The position numbers were made by a program, and so were the translations under genes. This document shows positions 22,761 through 36,702 of a stretch of 64,000 bases of DNA, one piece after another. The DNA lies in NCBI RefSeq assembly GCF_003752415.1, contig NZ_RKHG01000001.1:310001-374000 (forward strand), in the 5' to 3' direction. Source of the DNA: Luteococcus japonicus (lineage in GTDB: Bacteria; Actinomycetota; Actinomycetes; Propionibacteriales; Propionibacteriaceae). How positions within the stretch are numbered: the first letter of the stretch is position 1; every line of letters begins with the position of its first letter. The notes below the pieces were generated by a model that did not search any database, was not told the origin of the DNA, and saw only the letters and a program-made list of their open reading frames with translations.

Positions 22761-23699
22761 TCAGATCTGGGTGGAGTAGACGAGCAGCTCCGAGCCCTCT
22801 TCACCGTCGTCGGGCGCAGCGAACATCGTCAGGCTGTCACCGTTGGCCTCGAATGCCACGGGGTTGCGGGTGACCACGTGCTTGTTGTTGCTGAAGACCT
22901 GGACGGGGACCTCGTTGATGAGGCTTCCGCTGCGGATGTCCAGCAGGGCGATGCCGCCGAGCTCGAAGGGCTTGCCGTCGGCGTCCTTCAGGCCGGTGAT
23001 GCCGGTGCAGATCATGGTGCCGGCACCGGAGTACTCGCAGTCCTGGTAGTCCACCATCGCCGACGGGTTGCTCATCTCGTCCACGAGCCGCCCCTTCTTG
23101 AAGGTCAGGAATTCGCGGCTGCCCCAGGTGACGGCGGCAATCTTGCGATGTTTGCGGTCGTTCACCACGCCACCCACGTGGTCGTCGGCACGGAACTCCT
23201 CGCGCACCCGGTAGGTGTCCGGGTCGATGGTGTAGACGATCGACTTGCTGTGCGGGCGGTACTCGGCCACCGGGACCCACACCTTGCGGCCGTCGAAGTC
23301 GATGCCACCGGGGTGGTAGATGTCGCCCTCGCCCAGCACGATGTCCTTGACCAGCTTGCCGTCGCGGGTGACGACGAAGACGTGTCCACGTCCCTTGCCC
23401 GCAGTGCGGTCCATGCCATCGACCGGTGCCGGGTGCTTCACGGTGGGTTCGAGGATCTCGACGCTGGAGATCCAGATGTGGTCGCCGACCACGCTCATGC
23501 CCTGCATGTGGAAGGTGTCGAAGTCCAGCTTGAGGCTGGCGGTCTGGGTCCACGCATTGCCGCGGGTGAGCTGCCCGACGGCGATGGCCTCGGGGTCGAG
23601 GCGGTCCTGGCCGGCGGTGGCCATCGGGGCCGCCGTCAATGTGGTGGCCGTCGCGACGACGGTGGCGAGGGCAAGACCAAGACGCTGGGAGCGCTTCAT
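22761..23699 (-). CDS. Secreted protein of unknown function (DUF6454-like)
   Basis: Exported protein with a Sec signal peptide (hydrophobic residues 8-25, likely cleavage after MATAG). The mature part has repeated beta-strand blocks (DTFHMQGMSVVGDHIWISSV, HPGGIDFDGRKVWVPVAEYR, VNDRKHRKIAAVTWGSREF) suggesting a six-bladed propeller. I tentatively relate it to DUF6454; no catalytic residues can be named. GGAG precedes the ATG. It is convergent with the glycosyltransferase with only 15 bp between them. Confidence 0.7.
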   Translation of the reverse strand: MKRSQRLGLALATVVATATTLTAAPMATAGQDRLDPEAIAVGQLTRGNAWTQTASLKLDFDTFHMQGMSVVGDHIWISSVEILEPTVKHPAPVDGMDRTAGKGRGHVFVVTRDGKLVKDIVLGEGDIYHPGGIDFDGRKVWVPVAEYRPHSKSIVYTIDPDTYRVREEFRADDHVGGVVNDRKHRKIAAVTWGSREFLTFKKGRLVDEMSNPSAMVDYQDCEYSGAGTMICTGITGLKDADGKPFELGGIALLDIRSGSLINEVPVQVFSNNKHVVTRNPVAFEANGDSLTMFAAPDDGEEGSELLVYSTQI

Positions 23700-23905
23700 G
23701 GGGGTACTCCATTCTTCGTGTGGGGTTCCATGAAGCTATGGCCGAGAGGTGAAGGGAATGGGGACGGGAATTGGCCCCAGTGGGCCATCCGCATGAATCC
23801 TCGTCCACGCTGGCTCACATGCACTCTGGCCTTTGACGTCTGCGGAGGCCTAGACTCACCACAGTTAGTTTTGCGCCGACAGGAATACGTCCAATGGAGG
23901 ATGCC

Positions 23906-26053
23906 GTGACAGCACAGGCCCAACTCGTTCTCGAGAACCCCACGACCTGTGTGGTGGTCGACAGTCCCGACGGTGCGCTGCCCCGCATCATCCACTGGGG
24001 TGCCGGCCTGGGCCCCCTCGACGAGAAGCTCGTCCGGGAACTGGTGGCCGCCCAGGCGCCCGTCCACATGCACAACGGCCAGCCCGACGAGGGATTCGCC
24101 CTGGCCCTGCTCCCCGAGCAGTGGCGTGGCTGGTACGGGCATCCCGGCATCAGCGGGTCCCGCGACGGCACGGCATGGGCACCCCGCTTCGTCGTCCAGC
24201 GGATCGAACTGGACGGCAAGCCGGTCAGCGGTTTCGTCGCGGCGGCCGAGGGAACCGTCGTCTGGCATGCCGTCGACGTGGACTGCGGCCTGGCGCTCGC
24301 CCTGACCCTGGAACTGACCCCCTCGGGACTGGTGCGCGCCCGCGCCGAGGTGACCAATACCGGTGAGGGTGGCTACCAGCTCGACGAGCTGCTGATCGCC
24401 ATGCCGGTTCCCGCCCGCGCCACCGAGATCCTCGACTTCGCCGGCCGCTGGGGCAAGGAGCGGGTGCCGCAACGTACCCCGCTGCATGTCGGAAGCCACT
24501 GGCGCGAGGGACGTCACGGCCGCACCGGTGCTGATTCGGCCTTCGTGCTGCACCTCGGAGAGCCAGGCTTCGGCTTCTCCTCCGGGGATGTCTGGGCGGT
24601 CCACACCGGCTGGAGCGGCAACCACGTCCACTATGCGGAGAAGAGCCTGATCGGCGACCAGGTGATCGGTGGCGGCGAGCTGCTGCTGCCCGGCGAGGTC
24701 GTGCTGGCAACGGGGGAGAGCTACACCAGTCCGTGGATCCACTTCAGCCACGGCACCGGACTCGACGCCGTCGCCCACCTCCACCACGACTACCTGCGCG
24801 CCACGCACCCCGTCGATCCCCAGCGTCCCGTCACCCTGAACGTCTGGGAGGCCGTCTACTTCGACCACGACGCGGACCGGCTCAAGGACCTGGCGCACCG
24901 TGCCGCGAAGCTCGGCATCGAGCGCTATGTGCTGGACGACGGCTGGTTCGGCTCTCGTCGCGACGACTTCTCCGGCCTGGGTGACTGGGTGGTCAGCACC
25001 GAGGTCTGGCCGCAGGGCCTGCATCCCCTGGTGGACGAGGTGACGGGTCTGGGCATGCAGTTCGGCCTGTGGTTCGAGCCCGAGATGGTCAACCCGGACT
25101 CGGACCTGGCCCGCGCCCATCCCGAATGGGTGATGCAGGTGCCCGGCCGCACCCCCTTGGAGGCCCGCCACCAGTGGGTGTTGAACCTGGGGATCCCAGG
25201 TGCCTATGCCCACGTCCGGGACCAGATGATGGCGCTGCTGGACGAGTACGACATCTCCTACATCAAGTGGGACCACAACCGTGACCTGTTGGATGCCGGC
25301 ACATCGCCCGACGGGCGCCCCGGTGTGCACGAGCAGACGCTGTCCTTCTACCGGCTGGTGGACGAGCTCAAGGCCGCCCACCCCGGCCTGGAGATCGAGT
25401 CCTGCAGCTCGGGTGGAGCCCGGATCGATCTCGAGGTGATGCAGCACTGTGACCGCGTCTGGGTCAGCGACAACATCGACCCCACGGACCGGCAGCAGAT
25501 GATGCGCTGGACCACCCAGCTGCTCCCACCCGAGATGCTCGGTTCGCACATCGCCTCGGGGGCCTCGCACACCACCGGCCGCCACCACGACATCAACTAC
25601 CGTGCGGCGACGGCGGTCTTCGGGCACCTGGGCGTCGAGTGGGACCTCGCGAAGGCCACCGACGAGGAACTGCGCCAGCTGGGGGAGTGGATCGCCTGGT
25701 ACAAGCAGCACCGCGGACTGCTCAATGCCGGACGGCTGGTGCGTGTGGATGTTCCCCAGGCCAGCGGGGGTGACGTCTTCCTGCATGGCGTCGTGGGGGA
25801 GGATGCTGCCATCTTCGCGTGGACCTCGTTGGTCACCACCGCCACCTGGAGCCTGGGTGCCATTCGGCTGCCTGGGCTGGATCCCGAGGCCACCTACCGG
25901 GTCGAGCACCTCGGTCTGACGGTGACGCAGGGGCCCGGCATGCACGCGGAGCCGGTGGAGATGACAGGGCGGATGCTGGCCACCGTCGGGCTGCGGGCTC
26001 CCGTGGTGCTTCCCGAGCGGACCAGGATCCTCACTGTGACGCGGGTGGAGTGA
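23906..26053 (+). CDS. galA: Alpha-galactosidase (GH36)
   Basis: Retaining glycosidase that releases galactose from melibiose, raffinose and related oligosaccharides, cytoplasmic (no signal peptide). The N-terminal beta-sandwich is followed by the TIM barrel; the nucleophile is Asp in YIKWDHNRD (near residue 455) and the acid/base is Asp in WVSDNIDPTDR (near 520). YVLDDGWFGSRRDD and FGLWFEPEMVNPDSDL are family hallmarks. The GTG with GGAGG five bases before it was chosen; an ATG four codons upstream is possible. It heads an operon with sugar ABC transporter genes. A TAGACT about 50 bp upstream may be the -10. Confidence 0.94.
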   Translation: MTAQAQLVLENPTTCVVVDSPDGALPRIIHWGAGLGPLDEKLVRELVAAQAPVHMHNGQPDEGFALALLPEQWRGWYGHPGISGSRDGTAWAPRFVVQRIELDGKPVSGFVAAAEGTVVWHAVDVDCGLALALTLELTPSGLVRARAEVTNTGEGGYQLDELLIAMPVPARATEILDFAGRWGKERVPQRTPLHVGSHWREGRHGRTGADSAFVLHLGEPGFGFSSGDVWAVHTGWSGNHVHYAEKSLIGDQVIGGGELLLPGEVVLATGESYTSPWIHFSHGTGLDAVAHLHHDYLRATHPVDPQRPVTLNVWEAVYFDHDADRLKDLAHRAAKLGIERYVLDDGWFGSRRDDFSGLGDWVVSTEVWPQGLHPLVDEVTGLGMQFGLWFEPEMVNPDSDLARAHPEWVMQVPGRTPLEARHQWVLNLGIPGAYAHVRDQMMALLDEYDISYIKWDHNRDLLDAGTSPDGRPGVHEQTLSFYRLVDELKAAHPGLEIESCSSGGARIDLEVMQHCDRVWVSDNIDPTDRQQMMRWTTQLLPPEMLGSHIASGASHTTGRHHDINYRAATAVFGHLGVEWDLAKATDEELRQLGEWIAWYKQHRGLLNAGRLVRVDVPQASGGDVFLHGVVGEDAAIFAWTSLVTTATWSLGAIRLPGLDPEATYRVEHLGLTVTQGPGMHAEPVEMTGRMLATVGLRAPVVLPERTRILTVTRVE

Positions 26054-26082
26054 TTGACGGAGGGTTAGTTCCATGATGAAAT

Positions 26083-26137
26083 GAAGCCATCGTCAGAGCT
26101 GACGATCCCTGTTGACGAAGGAGTCGACGATGGCTTC
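26083..26137 (+). promoter_or_regulatory. Alternative hairpins over the permease start codon
   Basis: Segment A, GAAGCCATCGTC (26083-26094), is a perfect complement of segment C, GACGATGGCTTC (26126-26137), which contains the start codon; pairing A-C also traps the AAGGAG ribosome-binding site in the loop. Overlapping segment ATCGTCAG (26089-26096) pairs perfectly with segment B, CTGACGAT (26099-26106). A-B and A-C are mutually exclusive, so the RNA can switch between a closed and an open start site. Confidence 0.6.
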
Positions 26138-27044
26138 GCCCCATCCCGCCCCACCCTCCGAACTGCGCCACTCGCGCCGCAAGGATGACACCGGCCTGGC
26201 GCTGGCATTCATCGCGCCAGCCCTGGTCGGTTTCCTGGTCTTCCTGCTGTGGCCCACGCTTCGTGGCATCTACCTCAGCTTCACCACGTTCAACCTGCTC
26301 ACCCCGCCGGAGTTCGTCGGCCTCGACAACTATGCGCGGATGTTCCACGACCCGATCTTCTGGAATGCCGCCATGGTCACCGTCGAGTACGTCGCGATCA
26401 ACATCGGCATCCAGACGGTGCTCGCGCTGCTGATCGCCGTCCTGATGGACCGGCTCACCAAGTCCACCTTCGTGCGCGGTGTGGTGCTGACGCCCTACCT
26501 TGTCTCCAATGTGGTGGCCGCCATGGTCTTCCTGTGGATCCTCGACTCCCAGCTGGGCATCTTCAACGAATTCCTGACCTGGGTCGGGGCGGACCGGATC
26601 CCCTTCCTCACCGACGAGAGGTGGGTGATCCCCACCATCGCCCTGATCAATGTGTGGCGTCACATGGGCTACACCGCACTGCTGATCTTCGCCGGTCTGC
26701 AGACGATCCCCCCGAGCGCCTACGAGGCCGCCAAGGTGGACGGCGCCAGCGAATGGAAGATGTTCTGGAAGATCACCATGCCGCTGCTGCGCCCCATCCT
26801 TGCGCTGGTGCTGATCATGACGGTGATCGGCTCCTTCCAGGTCTTCGACTCCGTCGCCGTCACCACCGGTGGCGGGCCCGTGAACTCCTCGCGGGTGCTG
26901 CAGCTCTACATCTACGACATGGCCTTCGGACGCTTCCAGTTCGGCTATGCCTCGGCCCTCTCGGTCGCCCTCCTGGTGATCCTGCTGGTCATCACCATCA
27001 TCCAGTACCGGCTCACCCGCGCCGGCCAGACCGACCTGAACTGA
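26130..27044 (+). CDS. Sugar ABC transporter permease (MalF-type)
   Basis: First permease subunit of a CUT1 oligosaccharide importer, 304 residues with six transmembrane helices (first at about 17-38). The cytoplasmic EAA loop reads YEAAKVDGASEWKMFWKITMP. The start codon ATG has AAGGAG six bases upstream and sits in a complementary RNA segment. Context (galA before, binding protein after, ROK regulator at the end) points to alpha-galactosides. No ATPase gene is in the operon, so a shared MsiK-like ATPase elsewhere is expected. Confidence 0.9.
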   Translation: MASPHPAPPSELRHSRRKDDTGLALAFIAPALVGFLVFLLWPTLRGIYLSFTTFNLLTPPEFVGLDNYARMFHDPIFWNAAMVTVEYVAINIGIQTVLALLIAVLMDRLTKSTFVRGVVLTPYLVSNVVAAMVFLWILDSQLGIFNEFLTWVGADRIPFLTDERWVIPTIALINVWRHMGYTALLIFAGLQTIPPSAYEAAKVDGASEWKMFWKITMPLLRPILALVLIMTVIGSFQVFDSVAVTTGGGPVNSSRVLQLYIYDMAFGRFQFGYASALSVALLVILLVITIIQYRLTRAGQTDLN

Positions 27045-27057
27045 GAGGAGTCAGAAC

Positions 27058-27937
27058 ATGTCCAAGTTCTCCTTCGGCAAGGTCCTCGCCTGGACGGCGA
27101 TGGCGCTGATCATCATTGCCTCGCTCTTCCCCTTCTACTGGATCCTGCGCACGGCCCTGAGCACCAACCCGTCGCTGGTCCAGCAGCCCACCAAACTGCT
27201 GCCCCCGGAGATGAGCCTCGACGGCTTCCGGCGCGTCTTCGGCACCCAGAGCGGCGACGCCGCGATCGCCGCCGGAGGATCGGGCCAAGAGATCAACTTC
27301 TGGGCCTACCTGCGCAACTCCGTGGTGGTCGCCACCCTGGTCACCGTCGGCCAGGTGCTCTTCTCCGCGATGGCCGCCTACGCCTTCAGCCGGCTGCAGT
27401 GGAAGGGCCGCTCCTTCTTCTACGGCCTCTTCCTGGCGGGCCTGATGGTCCCGACCATCTTCACCTTCCTGCCCAACTTCGTGCTGATCAAGCAGCTGGG
27501 ACTGTTGGACAGCGTCTTCGGCATCGCCTTGCCGAGCATGCTCATGACGCCCTTCGCGGTCTTCTTCCTGCGCCAGTTCTTCGCGAACATCCCCACGGAA
27601 CTGGAGGAGGCGGCGCTGTTTGGACGGCTCCAGCAAGATCCGAAACTTCTTCACCCTGATCCTGCCGATGAGCGCCGCACCCCTCGCGACGCTGTCGATC
27701 CTGACCTACATCGCCGCATGGAATGACTACTTCTGGCCCCTGATGGTCAGCTACACCGACAAGTCCCGGGTGCTGACCGTCGGTCTGGGGATCTTCCGGT
27801 CCCAGACGCCGCAGACGGGCCCCGACTGGGCCGGTCTGATGGCTGCCACCCTGGTGGCCGCGCTGCCGATGCTGCTGCTCTTCGCGGCCTTCGCCAAGCG
27901 CATCGTCAACTCCATCGGCTTCAGCGGAATCAAGTGA
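27058..27937 (+). pseudogene. Sugar ABC transporter permease (MalG-type), frameshifted
   Basis: Second permease subunit. The first frame runs from the ATG through five helices to IPTELEEAAL, then enters a wrong frame and stops at 27726. The correct continuation, DGSSKIRNFFTLILPMSAAP, lies one base out of phase and runs to 27937. One extra T in the TTT at 27619-27621 explains the shift exactly, and it falls in the EAA loop needed for contact with the ATPase. Either the importer is inactive or this is a sequencing error; the rest of both frames is fully conserved, which argues for a very recent event. Confidence 0.8.
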
Positions 27938-27947
27938 GGTGCCCACG

Positions 27948-29339
27948 ATGAACCCCAACAAGTACGGCAAGAAGCTGCTGGCCAGCGCCCTGGCCGCGGT
28001 CACCGCCTTTGGGTTGACGCTGTCCGGCTGCAGCAGCAGCTCCAGCGACGACGACACGACGATGTCCTCGTCGGCCAATGTCATCGACTACTGGCTGTGG
28101 GACTCCGCCCAGCAGCCCGGCTACCAGAAGTGTGCCGACGGCTTCGCCAAGGCCAATCCGGGGCTGAGCGTCAAGATCACCCAGATGGGCTGGGACGACT
28201 ACTGGAGCAAGCTGACCGCCGGCTTCGTGGCCGACCAGGCCCCCGACGTGTTCACCAACCACCTGGGCAAGTACGCCCAGTTCGTGGACCTCGGTGTGCT
28301 GCTGCCGCTGGATGACCTCGAGGCCACCAAGGACATCAACTCCGACGACTTCCAGGAGGGGCTCGGAGACCTGTGGAAGGGTCAGGACGGCAAGCGATAC
28401 GGCGCCCCGAAGGACTGGGACACCATCGGCTACTTCTACGACAAGTTGGTCACCGATGCCGCCGGCCTCACCACCGAGCAGCTGGGCAAGCTCACCTGGA
28501 ATCCCGACGACGGGGGGACCTTCGAGAAGGCCATCGCCCACCTCACCGTCGACGTGAACGGCAAGCGGGGTGACGAGCCCGGCTTCGACAAGGACAAGGT
28601 CAAGGTCTACGGACTGGCCAGCGACGGTGCCGGTGGCGGCAACTTCGGGCAGACCCAGTGGGGCGCCTATGCCGCCTCGCACGGTTGGGCTCCCACGGAC
28701 AAGAACCCGTGGGGCACGAAGTTCCGGATGGATGACCCCACCTTCCAGAAGACCGTGGCCTGGTACTACGGCCTGGCGGACAAGGGCTTCATGCCCAAGT
28801 ACGAGACCTTCGGCAAGGACACCGGCTCCTACGCCCAGTTCGCGGCCGGCAAGGCAGCGCTGGCCATGAACGGCTCCTGGATGATCTCCAGCTTCCAGGG
28901 GATGAAGGGGATCGACCTGCACGTCGCCCCCACTCCCATCGGACCCAGCGGCCACCGGGCCAGCCCCTTCAATGGTCTGGCCGACTCGGTGACGCGCTTC
29001 ACGGACAACCGGGAGGGTTCGGCCAAGTGGGTGGCCTACATGGCCAGCGACGAGTGCCAGAACATCATCGGCGCTTCCGGCGTGGTCTTCCCGGCCCGCA
29101 AGAAGGGGACCGAGATCTCCCTGGAGACCCGCAAGAAGGCCGGTCTGGACGTGAGCGCCTTCACCGAACACGTCGAGAAGGGCACCACACAGCAGCAGGT
29201 GGTGATCCAGAATGCCGCCGATGTCACCGCCCTGATGGAGCCCGAGTTCGACGCGCAGTTCATCGGATCACACTCCGCGGGTGACCTGACCAAGCTCAAT
29301 GAGCAGTTGAACACACTGTTCGAGATCACCGCCAAGTAG
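27948..29339 (+). CDS. Sugar ABC transporter substrate-binding lipoprotein
   Basis: CUT1-type extracellular solute-binding protein, 463 residues. The signal peptide ends in the lipobox LTLSGC with lipidated Cys28, followed by a Ser/Asp linker. The two-lobe fold shows NVIDYWLWDS, APDVFTNHLGKYAQF, YGAPKDWDTIGYFYDK and AMNGSWMISSF. It starts 10 bp after the frameshifted permease. Likely binds melibiose- or raffinose-type sugars given the operon. A GTG three codons upstream is an alternative start. Confidence 0.92.
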   Translation: MNPNKYGKKLLASALAAVTAFGLTLSGCSSSSSDDDTTMSSSANVIDYWLWDSAQQPGYQKCADGFAKANPGLSVKITQMGWDDYWSKLTAGFVADQAPDVFTNHLGKYAQFVDLGVLLPLDDLEATKDINSDDFQEGLGDLWKGQDGKRYGAPKDWDTIGYFYDKLVTDAAGLTTEQLGKLTWNPDDGGTFEKAIAHLTVDVNGKRGDEPGFDKDKVKVYGLASDGAGGGNFGQTQWGAYAASHGWAPTDKNPWGTKFRMDDPTFQKTVAWYYGLADKGFMPKYETFGKDTGSYAQFAAGKAALAMNGSWMISSFQGMKGIDLHVAPTPIGPSGHRASPFNGLADSVTRFTDNREGSAKWVAYMASDECQNIIGASGVVFPARKKGTEISLETRKKAGLDVSAFTEHVEKGTTQQQVVIQNAADVTALMEPEFDAQFIGSHSAGDLTKLNEQLNTLFEITAK

Positions 29340-29342
29340 TCT
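29337..29342 (+). promoter_or_regulatory. -10 hexamer of the ROK regulator gene
   Basis: TAGTCT starts with the TAG stop codon of the binding-protein gene, followed by 6 nt and the GTG start. It would let the regulator be transcribed separately as a leaderless message. Confidence 0.5.
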
Positions 29343-29348
29343 GCGTCC

Positions 29349-30386
29349 GTGAACGATCTCGACGGCCTCGACCCGACCTCGCGGCGCGTGGCCCTGGCGG
29401 TGCTCCGCCAGGGCCCGGTCTCGCGGGCCGACCTGTGCGGGATGCTCGGGCTGTCTGCGCCCAGCCTTACCCGGCTGACCAAGCCGCTGCTGGCCAGCGG
29501 CCTGCTCAAGCAGGGGGATCCGGTGGCCCCGACCACCACGGGCCGTCCCGCGCTGCCGCTGGACGTGGCAGCGGAGCGGGCCCACTTCGTGGGGGCCAAG
29601 TTCATCCCGGGAGAGCTTCACCTGGTGCTCACGGACCTCAAGGGACGCGTCCTCGAGCGTCGGACGGCGACGGGTGACTACTCCTCGCCCGAGGTGGCGG
29701 TCCGGGAACTTGCCACCGAGCTGCGGCGCCTGACGACGACGGATCCCGCCGGGATCGGGGTCAGCCTCGGTGCCAGCGTCACAGAGGCCGGCGAGGTGCA
29801 GGGTGTCTGGTTCATGGGGTGGCCCTCGGTCGCCCTGCAGGGGATGGTCGCACAAGCGTGTGGGCTGCCGTGTGTCGTGGAGAACGACGTGAACGCCTTC
29901 ACCCTGGCCGAGCACTGGTTCGGCTTTGGGCGTGGCAGCCGGGACTTCGCCGTGCTGACGATCGGCGCGGGTGTCGGGCTGGGCCTGGTCTGCGGCGACG
30001 AATTGGTCCGCGGCCACGAGGGGAGGGCCGGCATGATCGGCGCCCTGACCCTGGCAGACGGACGGCGCGTGCACGAGGTGGTGGAGACCAGCCACGTCGA
30101 GGCCCGCCTGTCCGAGGCGGGGGACGAGGGCCGTGATGCCATCCTCGACGACGTCGCCCAGGCCATCGGCCAGATGGTGGGACAGGCATGCCTGGTCAGC
30201 GCCCCGGAGCGGGTCCTGGTCTCCGGCGAGGGCGCGGCGCTGCTCCTCGGACACGAGGAGGCGCTGCGCGACGGGCTGGCCCGCTATGCGGACCTGCCCG
30301 CCGACGCGCTGCGCATCGAGGCGCTGGGCTTCGACGAGTGGGCGCGCGGATCGGCCGCGATGGCGATCCGCGCCCACCTCACCTGA
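29349..30386 (+). CDS. ROK-family transcriptional regulator
   Basis: DNA-binding regulator of sugar uptake. The N-terminal winged helix (VSRADLCGMLGLSAPSLTRL, residues ~24-43) precedes a ROK sugar-kinase-like domain with VENDVNAFTLAEHWFGFG and AVLTIGAGVGLGLV. The usual ROK zinc motif (CxCGxxGC) is not present. The GTG start lacks a ribosome-binding site. Placement at the end of the galA-permease-binding protein operon suggests it senses an alpha-galactoside or galactose and controls that operon. Its end overlaps the convergent carboxylase gene by 8 bp. Confidence 0.88.
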   Translation: MNDLDGLDPTSRRVALAVLRQGPVSRADLCGMLGLSAPSLTRLTKPLLASGLLKQGDPVAPTTTGRPALPLDVAAERAHFVGAKFIPGELHLVLTDLKGRVLERRTATGDYSSPEVAVRELATELRRLTTTDPAGIGVSLGASVTEAGEVQGVWFMGWPSVALQGMVAQACGLPCVVENDVNAFTLAEHWFGFGRGSRDFAVLTIGAGVGLGLVCGDELVRGHEGRAGMIGALTLADGRRVHEVVETSHVEARLSEAGDEGRDAILDDVAQAIGQMVGQACLVSAPERVLVSGEGAALLLGHEEALRDGLARYADLPADALRIEALGFDEWARGSAAMAIRAHLT

Positions 30387-33300
30387 GCTTGCTGCGCAGG
30401 ATCTCGATGATCCGGGGGCGAAGCGTCGACACGCTGACCACCTCGTCGATGGATCCCACCTCCACCGCGCGGTGCACATTGTGCACGGCGTCGAACTCCC
30501 CGGCGACGGTGGAGATCATCTCGGCGCGCACCTCTTCCCGCAGTTCCGCGAGCTCCGCCTGCAGCGGCACCTTGCCGGCCTCGTCGGCCTGCGCGATGCG
30601 CTGCTTGAGCTCCACCAGACGAGCATCCGCCTCGACGCGTCGGGACACGTCACGGGCGAAGACGACGGCGGCCGCGGGGGCCCCGCCGATCACCGAGGCG
30701 TAGGAGCCCTCCAGCGCCAGGACCGTCATGTCGTCGTTCAGCGCCTTGGAGAAGACCACGAAGGCGCCGCCGTGGTAACGGCTGATCACGATGAAGACGA
30801 TCGGGCCTTCGAAGTTGACCATCGCCCGGCCGATCTCGGCGCCGTACTCCAACTGCAGGTTGCGCATGGACTCCGGGGAGCCGTCGAAGCCGGACAGGTT
30901 GGCCAGCACCACCACGGGGCGGTTGCCGGAGGCCGCATTGATGGCGCGGGCGGTCTTCTTGGAGGAGCGGGGGAACAGGGTGCCACCGGTGAAGGAGTCC
31001 GGGCCGTCGGCCGGGAGGTAGCCGGCCCGGGGCGTGGGCTTGGACTCGATGCCGATCAGGGTGCTCGGCAGGCCACCGATGGTGGTGTCGAAGACCACGG
31101 AGGTGTCTGCATTGGCCATCGTCGCCCACCGTTCCAGCGGCTCATGGTCGGCGTCCGCGACGGCCCGCATCACGGTGCGGATGTCGAAGGGCTTCTTGCG
31201 TTCCGGGTTCTTGTCCGTGCTGAAGATCTCCGCCACGGTGGCGAAGTCGCTTCCCTCACAGGAGTGCGGGGTGGTGCCGACGTCGCGGCCGTCCTCGTCC
31301 TGGGTGGGGATCTCCCGAGGGCGTGACTCGCCGGGCGCGACGTAGCTGTGCTCGTAGTGACGCATCAGGACCTGCTGGGCGCCGGCCAGGTCGCTGGCCC
31401 AGTACTGGGCCTGGCCATTGGGGCCCATGATCCGGTCGTAGCCGCCGATGCCGTGGTTGTCCTCGGCGGAGACACCACCGGAGAAGTCCAGCGACTGCTT
31501 GCCGGTGAGCACCATCGCGCTGTCCGGGGTCATCACCAGGATGCCCTTGGTGTGCATCAGCATGGTGGCCTCGGCATTCCAATAGGGCTGGGCACCGACA
31601 TTGATGCCCGCGACGATCACATTGATCTCGCCGCCGTCCTGGGTGAAGTTCACGATCCGGCGCAGGGCGTGGGCCACGGCGTCCATGTTCTCCGTGCCGG
31701 ACTCCATCGAGATCCGCGCCCCGGAGGACAGGGTGAACCAGTCGACGGGCAGCTGCTCGCGTTCGGCCAGGTCGATGGCGGCGACGATCCGGTCCGCCTC
31801 CGCGCCGCCGATGGAGCCCAGCGACTTCAGTGGGTCTCCGAAGAGCACGATCCGGCGCACGCCCTCGGGGTGGATGGGCGTGGGGGTGGAGACGTCGGCG
31901 ACGATGATGCCGGCCGTGTTGAGGCCGTGCTCGCGATTGACCGGCACCAGGGCGCCGGACTCGTCGAGGTCCAGCTCGACGGCCGTGCCGCGTGAACTCG
32001 ACACCAGGCCGAAGAGCTCGTAGGGATAGACCAGGCCGCGGCGACGGGCGCGCAGCACCTTCTCGTCGTAGGCGCTGACCGGGGCCAGCGGGTCGGTGGC
32101 CGGGTCCTGGATCTGGAAGCGGACGCCGAAACCCGGCTGCAGGCTGAAACGCACCACCGTCGGGACCGGCGGGGTTCCGGGAGTGCGGGTCACCGTGGCC
32201 TGGATCCTGACCTCGGTGATGCCGGCGTCGGCTGTGAGCGGTGCCAGGGTGCGCTCCAGCTGACGAAGGTTGCGCAGGTCGACGTCGTGCTCGCCCCAGA
32301 TGTGGATCCAGACGTGGTTGTGGTCCAGCTCGCCCTTGCGGGCACCGGCGCGGGCGCGACGGATGGCGTCGGTGGCATTGATCAGGGCCCGCTCCAGGTG
32401 CGGCATGCCCGTGACCTTGCCGTCCTCGTCGCGCAGGATGGACAGGCGCCTGACCTGGGCGAGGGCGACCAGCCTCACGTCGTCGGCATTGGTGGTGGCT
32501 GTGGCCTTCAGCAGCACGGTGCTGCCCGGGGCCTCGAGGCGTTCCAGGTCGAAGTTCGCCAGTCGCCACAGGTTGAGCTGGCGGCCGACCATCGGGTGGT
32601 GACCGCGCTGGATGCGCTCCTCCGTGAGGCCCGCGGAGCCGGGGCGCAATGTCAGGTACTCGACGCTTCCCTCGTGCAGGGGCAGGACACTGACCACCAG
32701 GCGACGCAGGCCGGTGACGAAGGCCATCTGGTCGGCTCGTGCGATGAGTTCGGCGGCGAGTGCGTCACCCGTCGTGGCTTCCTCTGCCGTCAGGTACAGA
32801 TCGAGAACGGCGTCCTGGCCGTCCGAGCGCTCCGTGACCAGCGACGCGATCACGGACTCCAGCGAGGACCCCGGACGGAATTCCTCCAGGGCAGCGATCA
32901 CCGAGACCAGTCGCGTGGGCTGCTCGTCGATCACGTAGTCGGCGGTGACCACGCCGTGGCCCTCGACGGTGCTCTCGGTCAGGTTCGTGAGGTCGTGCCC
33001 GCGGTAGTGGCGCTGGGTGAGGATGCCGAGCAGTGGCTCCTCGGCCGTGGCGCGGCGGGTGGGGTCGACGCCCAGGAAGCCGACCAGGCGGTCCGGGGCG
33101 GAGACGAGTTCCTCCGCCACGGCCTGACGGGTCGGGCCTTCGGGCAGGGCGTGCAGGTGGCCGAGCAGCTCGGGCACCTGGGCCAGGGCTGTGGCCTGCT
33201 GCGCATCCAGGGCCGGCTTGTCGAACCAGGCGAAGCGGATGCTCCTGGCCAGGTCTCCGATCCGCGGGAAACGACGCTGGGTGGCAATGACCAGACGGTC

Positions 33301-35898: not shown

Positions 35899-36005
35899 GC
35901 GCGCAGTCGTCCTTTGTCGTGGGATTGCCGTTCATGGCGACGCTAGTCCTGTGGGCCACCACAATGCGGCAACGATTTGCGCAGAGTCCCGAGGGTCTCC
36001 TTGGT

Positions 36006-36125
36006 GGGATTCCTACAAATGGGATTCCTGCAGATGGGATTCCTACAGATGGGATTCCTGCAGATGGGATTCCTGCAGATGGGATTCCTGCAGATGGGAT
36101 TCCTGCAGATGGGATTCCTACAGAT
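36006..36125. repeat. 15-bp minisatellite, eight units
   Basis: Eight head-to-tail copies of GGGATTCCTGCAGAT with only G/A changes: units 1, 3 and 8 have CTACA in place of CTGCA. Five units contain CTGCAG. The array fills most of the gap between the carboxylase and tetR genes and includes the tetR stop codon. Confidence 0.95.
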
Positions 36126-36702
36126 GGGGCTCGGTGGTCAGCCATCCATGACGCAGCATGCGGCCGAGTCGGGGTTCGGGATTCGAGGGCTGTGCCGCAG
36201 TGGCCCAGGTGGTTGCCAGGACGGACAGGAAGAGGTCACGGCCCGTGATCTCGCTCCGTGCCTGTCCGGCCTCCTGGACGGGCGCCAGGAAGCTCGACGT
36301 CGTCTCGATCACCCGTTCGCAGGTGGTTCCGAGCGGGGTGCCGGTGGCGTCGAGTGCCGCGCGCAGTGGAGCTGGGAGCCCTTCATAGGCACGCATCCAT
36401 CCGGCGATGGCATCCAACCATTCGTCCAGGGCGCGCTGCGGATCATGGTCCTGGTGGGTGATTCGTTGGGCCTCGCGGGCCAGGTCGGGGCGGTGTTCCT
36501 CGAGGACGGCGGCGACGAGGTCCTCGCGGGTGGGGAAGTGGCGGTACAAGGTTCCAGCGCCGACGCCGGCGGCCTTGGCGATGGCGTCGAGCGGGGCCTC
36601 GAGTCCATTCTGGGCGAAGGCGGCACGGGCGGCATCGATGATCTTTGCTCGGTTGCGTTGCACATCGCGTCGTGGGGCGCGCGTGGTGGCGTCGGCGTTC
36701 AA
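36118..36702 (-). CDS. TetR-family transcriptional regulator
   Basis: Repressor of 194 residues. The N-terminal helix-turn-helix reads AKIIDAARAAFAQNGLEAPL and GVGAGTLYRHFPTREDLVAA. The C-terminal ligand domain ends WATAAQPSNPEPRLGRML. I chose the TTG start because GGGAGG lies five bases before it; a longer frame from 36765 would be translated through a strong palindromic operator. The stop codon is created by a CTGTAG variant inside the last minisatellite unit. The likely target is the divergent, now broken flavin reductase gene and its own promoter. Confidence 0.83.
   Translation of the reverse strand: MNADATTRAPRRDVQRNRAKIIDAARAAFAQNGLEAPLDAIAKAAGVGAGTLYRHFPTREDLVAAVLEEHRPDLAREAQRITHQDHDPQRALDEWLDAIAGWMRAYEGLPAPLRAALDATGTPLGTTCERVIETTSSFLAPVQEAGQARSEITGRDLFLSVLATTWATAAQPSNPEPRLGRMLRHGWLTTEPHL

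Follow-up and report, generated by a model that had tools for sequence, protein, structure and literature searches.

Read-through RNA of the IS10 and IS50 transposase genes folds back and hides the start of the gene, whereas the native transposase mRNA does not. For phage T4 gene e and I-TevI, the sections of the reports drawn on here describe long upstream transcripts that form a helix hiding the SD and/or the AUG, and a promoter in the region of the left arm from which RNA without the left arm is made (PMC3014915, PMC2988022). In I-TevI, according to the same sections, an operator covers the promoter that gives rise to transcripts missing part of the hairpin (PMC3014915, PMC2988022). A narrow literature search turned up no published example from a bacterial sugar operon. 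Among regulators of the ROK family, RokB of Streptomyces is given, in the portion of the paper cited, a novH site of the form TTTGTTC-11X-GAACAAA (PMC4856308). The spacer between galA and permA described here appears to combine ordinary gene control with one unusual, unproven twist.

The genome consists of a single contig of 3.45 Mb, from which one window (the whole 64-kb stretch of DNA that was analysed) was taken. For comparison within the genus, Propionibacteriaceae bacterium UBA4569 (locus L004) was treated as the same-genus genome G001 and was the sole other genome of the genus compared. In the window, galA (GH36) is followed in the same orientation by permA, permB and the genes of a solute-binding protein and a ROK repressor; the galA stop is at 26053 and the permA start at 26130:

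23894 to 26053, plus strand: galA, GH36 alpha-galactosidase (Pfam Melibiase, 1e-116, and Glyco_hydro_36N), with a TGA stop at 26051-26053
26130 to 27044, plus strand: permA, first ABC-transporter permease (Pfam BPD_transp_1, 6e-19), its start aligning with the GTG start in L004
27058 to 27937, plus strand: permB, the second permease gene, interrupted by a frameshift (by tblastn, an intact relative aligns to it as two segments in different frames)
27939 to 29339, plus strand: solute-binding protein (Pfam SBP_bac_8, 2e-24)
29349 to 30386, plus strand: ROK-family repressor (Pfam ROK, 2e-18; top NCBIfam match NagC, under the cut-off), syntenic in relatives

The galA start is likely the GTG at 23906, judging by an SD of GGAGGA. 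The permB frameshift lies near 27593-27619 and is either a sequencing error or a real break; both pieces align to a single 316-aa permease that is intact in a relative. The ROK gene at 29349 lies directly 3' of the transporter genes, so that repressor and putative targets are linked, and it also follows the transporter genes in L002, L003, L004, L005, L012 and L038. None was seen in the family loci L008 and L013. In a second set of loci, most of them fetched by ROK or permA search, the gene was present in 24 of 24. Orthologues of permA (E <= 1e-100) were found in 43 of 198 family genomes, including this genome and the same-genus genome. Outside the window, a second galA copy (G000:C1:1773629-1775763) is broken by 2 TGA and 1 TAG codons, has an operator-like element upstream, and shares 80% DNA identity with galA over 1733 aligned bases. 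About 8 kb from it lies a paralogue of the ROK gene (G000:C1:1783449-1784540; 61% identical). In genus g22, which holds the next ROK relatives, galactokinase-like genes were recognised by reading the sequence in 6 of 7 loci, and no palindrome common to these ROK loci was seen by eye. Elsewhere in the window, 36005-36128 is a tandem repeat (period 15, 8.3 copies, 95% matches) within listed ORFs on both strands.

A preliminary description of the spacer had reported that a 12-nt segment is perfectly complementary to the permA start region, that the ribosome-binding site lies in the resulting loop, and that the same upstream segment has a second, 8-nt complement. All three were found as reported. 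The segment GAAGCCATCGTC at 26083-26094 is the reverse complement of 26126-26137, with the ATG at 26130 inside; the SD, GAAGGAG at 26117-26123, is within the loop; and the 8-nt complement at 26099-26106 makes 26089-26106 a perfect 8-bp dyad, ATCGTCAG-AG-CTGACGAT. The elements of the foldings are:

26083 to 26094, plus strand: left arm of the long helix, of which the first half, 26083-26088, lies upstream of the putative transcription start
26126 to 26137, plus strand: right arm of the long helix, including the ATG at 26130-26132
26089 to 26106, no strand assigned: 18-bp palindrome, putative 5'-terminal hairpin of the transporter mRNA
26111 to 26128, plus strand: small hairpin GTTGAC-GAAGGA-GTCGAC whose loop contains the SD, predicted mean pairing 0.97-0.99 for RNA starts at 26087-26091

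A 12-nt complement of the start region arose in 2 of 20,000 shuffled spacers, or in 5 of 20,000 when the palindrome was held fixed. We also screened 648 starts of ORFs of at least 150 aa with an SD-like motif, from the window and 80 related loci (L001 and L082-L115 left out); permA was the only one with a complement of at least 10 nt, and the next best had 9 nt. Fold z-scores were -3.9 for the 55-nt RNA and -4.0 for the 117-nt RNA. The statistics of the complementarity were weaker against the whole 64 kb than locally, 8 inverted-repeat seeds of 12 nt (loop 3-60) being seen, from 4 places, against 1.0 expected in Markov sequence. Part of the significance is lost because a choice among an estimated 55 or so gene starts had been open to the preliminary description.

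The spacer also holds a candidate operator, which the preliminary description had not noted; an element of this kind was first recognised in the galA upstream regions. A symmetric 21-bp motif was learned from 33 upstream regions of relatives (21 of galA and 12 of permA), with the window excluded; most of the loci had been picked because they carried a ROK gene or permA, no region was obtained from L163, and L175 yielded no galA region, its galA being cut off. The consensus from relatives only was TTAnTTTCGTnACGAAAnTAA. Within this training set, 16 of the 21 galA regions and 8 of the 12 permA regions contained a site scoring at least 13; among 660 shuffled regions, 1 did. Two candidates in the window ranked high:

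26065 to 26085, no strand assigned: candidate ROK operator TTAGTTCCATGATGAAATGAA, rank 1 of 63,980 positions, 7 of 10 dyad positions
23865 to 23885, no strand assigned: candidate ROK operator TTAGTTTTGCGCCGACAGGAA before galA, rank 3 of 63,980 positions with the relatives-only motif

When the motif was built from galA sites only, 26065 and 23865 again ranked first and third; with permA sites only, they ranked first and sixth. The galA candidate lies 8 nt after TAGACT, a -10-like hexamer (23851-23856). The element upstream of the broken galA copy ranked first in its 5 kb, and a common motif was found before several targets (26065, 23865 and the broken copy). As background, 5 positions in 518 kb of 43 other loci scored at least as high as 26065, and some of these may be real sites. 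In L012, the operator was found before permA and, with 3 mismatches, before galA. The best score in the L004 spacer was -11.1, stretches over its 2 unread bases being unscorable. A search pattern that had been widened to fit the site in the window matches there with 0 mismatch, which proves nothing. The motif comparison gives good support to 26065-26085 as an operator; the ROK protein encoded at 29349 probably has its operator here, and is the likely binder of both 26065-26085 and 23865-23885.

The candidate operator overlaps a promoter-like sequence, TTGACG-N17-TGAAAT:

26054 to 26059, plus strand: -35-like TTGACG, directly after the galA stop
26077 to 26082, plus strand: -10-like TGAAAT of the extended type (TGA in front), without the A at position 2

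This was the best match of the spacer to TTGACA-N16-18-TATAAT (9 of 12 positions), and 56 of 2000 shuffles equalled it. A stricter promoter scan of 23600-26300 found no promoter, and no terminator-like site was found on the plus strand of the same interval. If the promoter is used, RNA would start near 26089, the first base of the palindrome and a position inside the long helix. Control of the transporter genes by a ROK operator and a separate promoter is likely.

Predicted folding depended on the origin of the transcript. In RNA that begins at or before 26083, as read-through RNA does, the 12-bp helix had a mean pairing of 0.89. In RNA starting at 26087-26091 that helix was gone, and the palindrome hairpin formed at 0.92-0.94 (0.86 when the RNA was extended at its 3' end). 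Opening the permA start region was predicted to cost 18.5-21.1 kcal/mol for starts at 26083 or upstream (21.1 in read-through RNA) and 12.8 kcal/mol for starts at 26087-26091, compared to 10.6-13.4 kcal/mol at five further gene starts of the window; of 40 window positions taken at random, 15 had a cost of at least 21.0. The start would be hidden by the helix in upstream-initiated RNA, but the AUG was also paired in the internal RNA (unpaired 0.06 in read-through and 0.08 in internal RNA). The SD was unpaired at 0.61 in read-through versus 0.85 in internal RNA, and mean openness from SD to start was 0.30 versus 0.37. Only the opening cost differed strongly, because the AUG was paired in both RNAs and the SD was mostly open even in the read-through RNA. 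When the upstream part was subjected to dinucleotide shuffling, 7 of 400 sequences gave as strong a read-through block. Because the 12-bp helix dominates read-through RNA and the palindrome dominates RNA starting at 26087-26091, the start point would select the folding without a ligand. The models suggest that the two RNA shapes are probably selected by the RNA start point and not by a sensed chemical.

We consider it about evenly balanced that the galA-permA spacer serves the transporter genes as an internal promoter under ROK control, with the folding set by the transcript start. In the mechanism that we infer from the operator match, the complementarity and the predicted foldings, the ROK repressor would bind 26065-26085, over the -10 region, as well as the site before galA; with ROK sites at both places, hydrolysis and uptake would be under one regulator but expressed from separate promoters. 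Sugar would remove the repressor, and transporter mRNA would start near 26089. The 5' end of this mRNA would fold as the 18-nt palindrome hairpin, and the second, small hairpin would display the SD in its loop, so that permA could be translated. Read-through RNA from galA would carry the whole left arm, form the 12-bp helix over the ATG, and give poor translation of permA, a block that modelling suggests is like that of T4 gene e and I-TevI. In the most far-reaching version, the repressor-controlled promoter would lie within the start-codon hairpin of the operon itself, and the uptake genes would be translated mainly from RNA directly controlled by the repressor and barely from transcripts leaking out of the hydrolase gene; this last part is tentative, and we regard it as rather unlikely.

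Relatives were examined for both the helix and the block. The long helix was found in none of 26 permA orthologues, hand-picked from a larger number listed, in which the longest complement over the start was 0-7 nt. In L004, permA is 82% identical and the SD block GACGAAGGAGTCGA is retained; the long helix is broken. By alignment, its palindrome core is CGTCGNNGCCGAC versus CGTCAGAGCTGAC here, giving the core GTC(A/G)NNGC(T/C)GAC with a symmetric A-T to G-C change, as seen in one genome with 2 bases unread. The block was assessed in nine relatives, at loci with an operator or operator-like site and with RNA starts set by rule about 3 nt after the site. It was equalled by 35 of 100 shuffles in L003, 3 in L164, 24 in L165, 1 in L171, 6 in L172, 77 in L175, 46 in L012, 66 in L173 and 7 in L002. 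This spread indicates that the read-through block is not general, and L164, L171 and L172 count little more than once because their spacers are very similar. By eye, GACATATC in the promoter region of the L171 and L172 permA spacer (G024, G035) is able to base-pair with GGTATGTC immediately ahead of the start, a layout in another genus that resembles the read-through arrangement here. An SD in a hexaloop closed by GAC/GTC was observed at 26113-26126 and in L004, L024, L026, L045, L046, L058, L061, L069 and L076. The next outward pair was standard in 9 of these 10 loci, with five pair types; the loci were picked by the GAC/GTC core and not by the outer pair. There may be a small conserved SD-presenting hairpin at the permA start.

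These results allow more than one explanation. The preliminary description had read the two mutually exclusive foldings as a riboswitch, attenuator or protein-gated switch, while recognising no known riboswitch class. The latter statement agrees with our search of 23500-30800, in which no Rfam family reached its gathering score (five matches up to E = 10, none near it). Two foldings do exist on paper, one of them over the start codon, and the fold is strong (z of -4); gating by ligand or protein is not supported. Besides the Rfam result, the leader did not prove conserved or covarying when relatives were checked, the long complement being absent from all 26 orthologues and the helix broken in L004, and transcript origin alone separated the foldings in prediction. 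We consider such an RNA switch very improbable. The preliminary description had also offered that the 18-bp palindrome itself is the operator of the ROK protein. Our comparison of spacers at first pointed the same way, since the palindromes of L003 and L097 stop 26-27 nt short of the start and the one here stops 23 nt short of it; in this survey of relatives' spacers, L007, L105 and L106 were dropped for want of a start, and the choice of start was doubtful for L025 and L078. The palindrome was rejected as the ROK operator because the family motif placed the operator at 26065-26085, which ranked first, whereas the palindrome scored very low (-26.0 to -7.6 in two registers). On the minus strand, 26106-26089, the palindrome followed by GGCTTCATTT scored as terminator-like, probably by chance.

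The palindrome could instead be the DNA operator of a second regulator, for example a TetR-type dimer, occupying +1 to +18 of the transporter promoter. Its perfect 8-bp dyad was reached by 35 of 5000 shuffled spacers, and L004 retains GTC-R-N4-Y-GAC with the symmetric change and the 2 unread bases noted above. However, the genome has no further copy at up to 2 mismatches (14 other places at 3 mismatches), and matches at up to 1 mismatch were present in 11 of 198 family genomes, its own included; we regard this explanation as improbable. A more serious possibility, although still well short of an even one, is that the operator and internal promoter are real and the 12-bp helix is incidental, a start-proximal palindrome having happened to extend with nothing depending on the helix. 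The lack of the helix in the 26 orthologues and in the one same-genus genome compared would fit this, as would the pairing of the AUG in both RNAs and the choice among gene starts that weakens the statistics. In contrast, the complement is the longest of 648 gene starts by 3 nt, and the opening cost is about 21 kcal/mol versus 10.6-13.4 kcal/mol for the five other starts in the window.

Under the preferred reading, a ROK-controlled internal promoter with folding set by transcript start, the apparent riboswitch may be a by-product of promoter placement. The analysis also predicts the operator motif of a ROK regulator linked to galA in Propionibacteriaceae. Should the read-through block be real, the helix would act as an insulator made of RNA within a bacterial operon, and the logic of phage T4 lysozyme would here serve as an insulator between two genes of that one operon.

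IS10 and IS50 are mobile elements, whereas the present locus is an operon. Like NagC, Mlc and RokB, its regulator has a helix-turn-helix and a ROK domain, is encoded beside sugar genes and would have an AT-rich inverted-repeat operator; the operator predicted here is TTAnTTTC-N5-GAAAnTAA, however, and the NCBIfam NagC and Mlc matches are far below their cut-offs. Compared to T4 gene e and I-TevI, the system here belongs to a bacterial operon for sugar use, its ROK operator is a prediction, and the transcription start and translation are predicted as well. The helix is not conserved here; for close relatives of T4, by contrast, leaders of this kind are predicted in the sections of the T4 reports cited (PMC3014915, PMC2988022). 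The parallel with I-TevI, as those sections describe it, is close because there too an operator overlaps a promoter of this kind.
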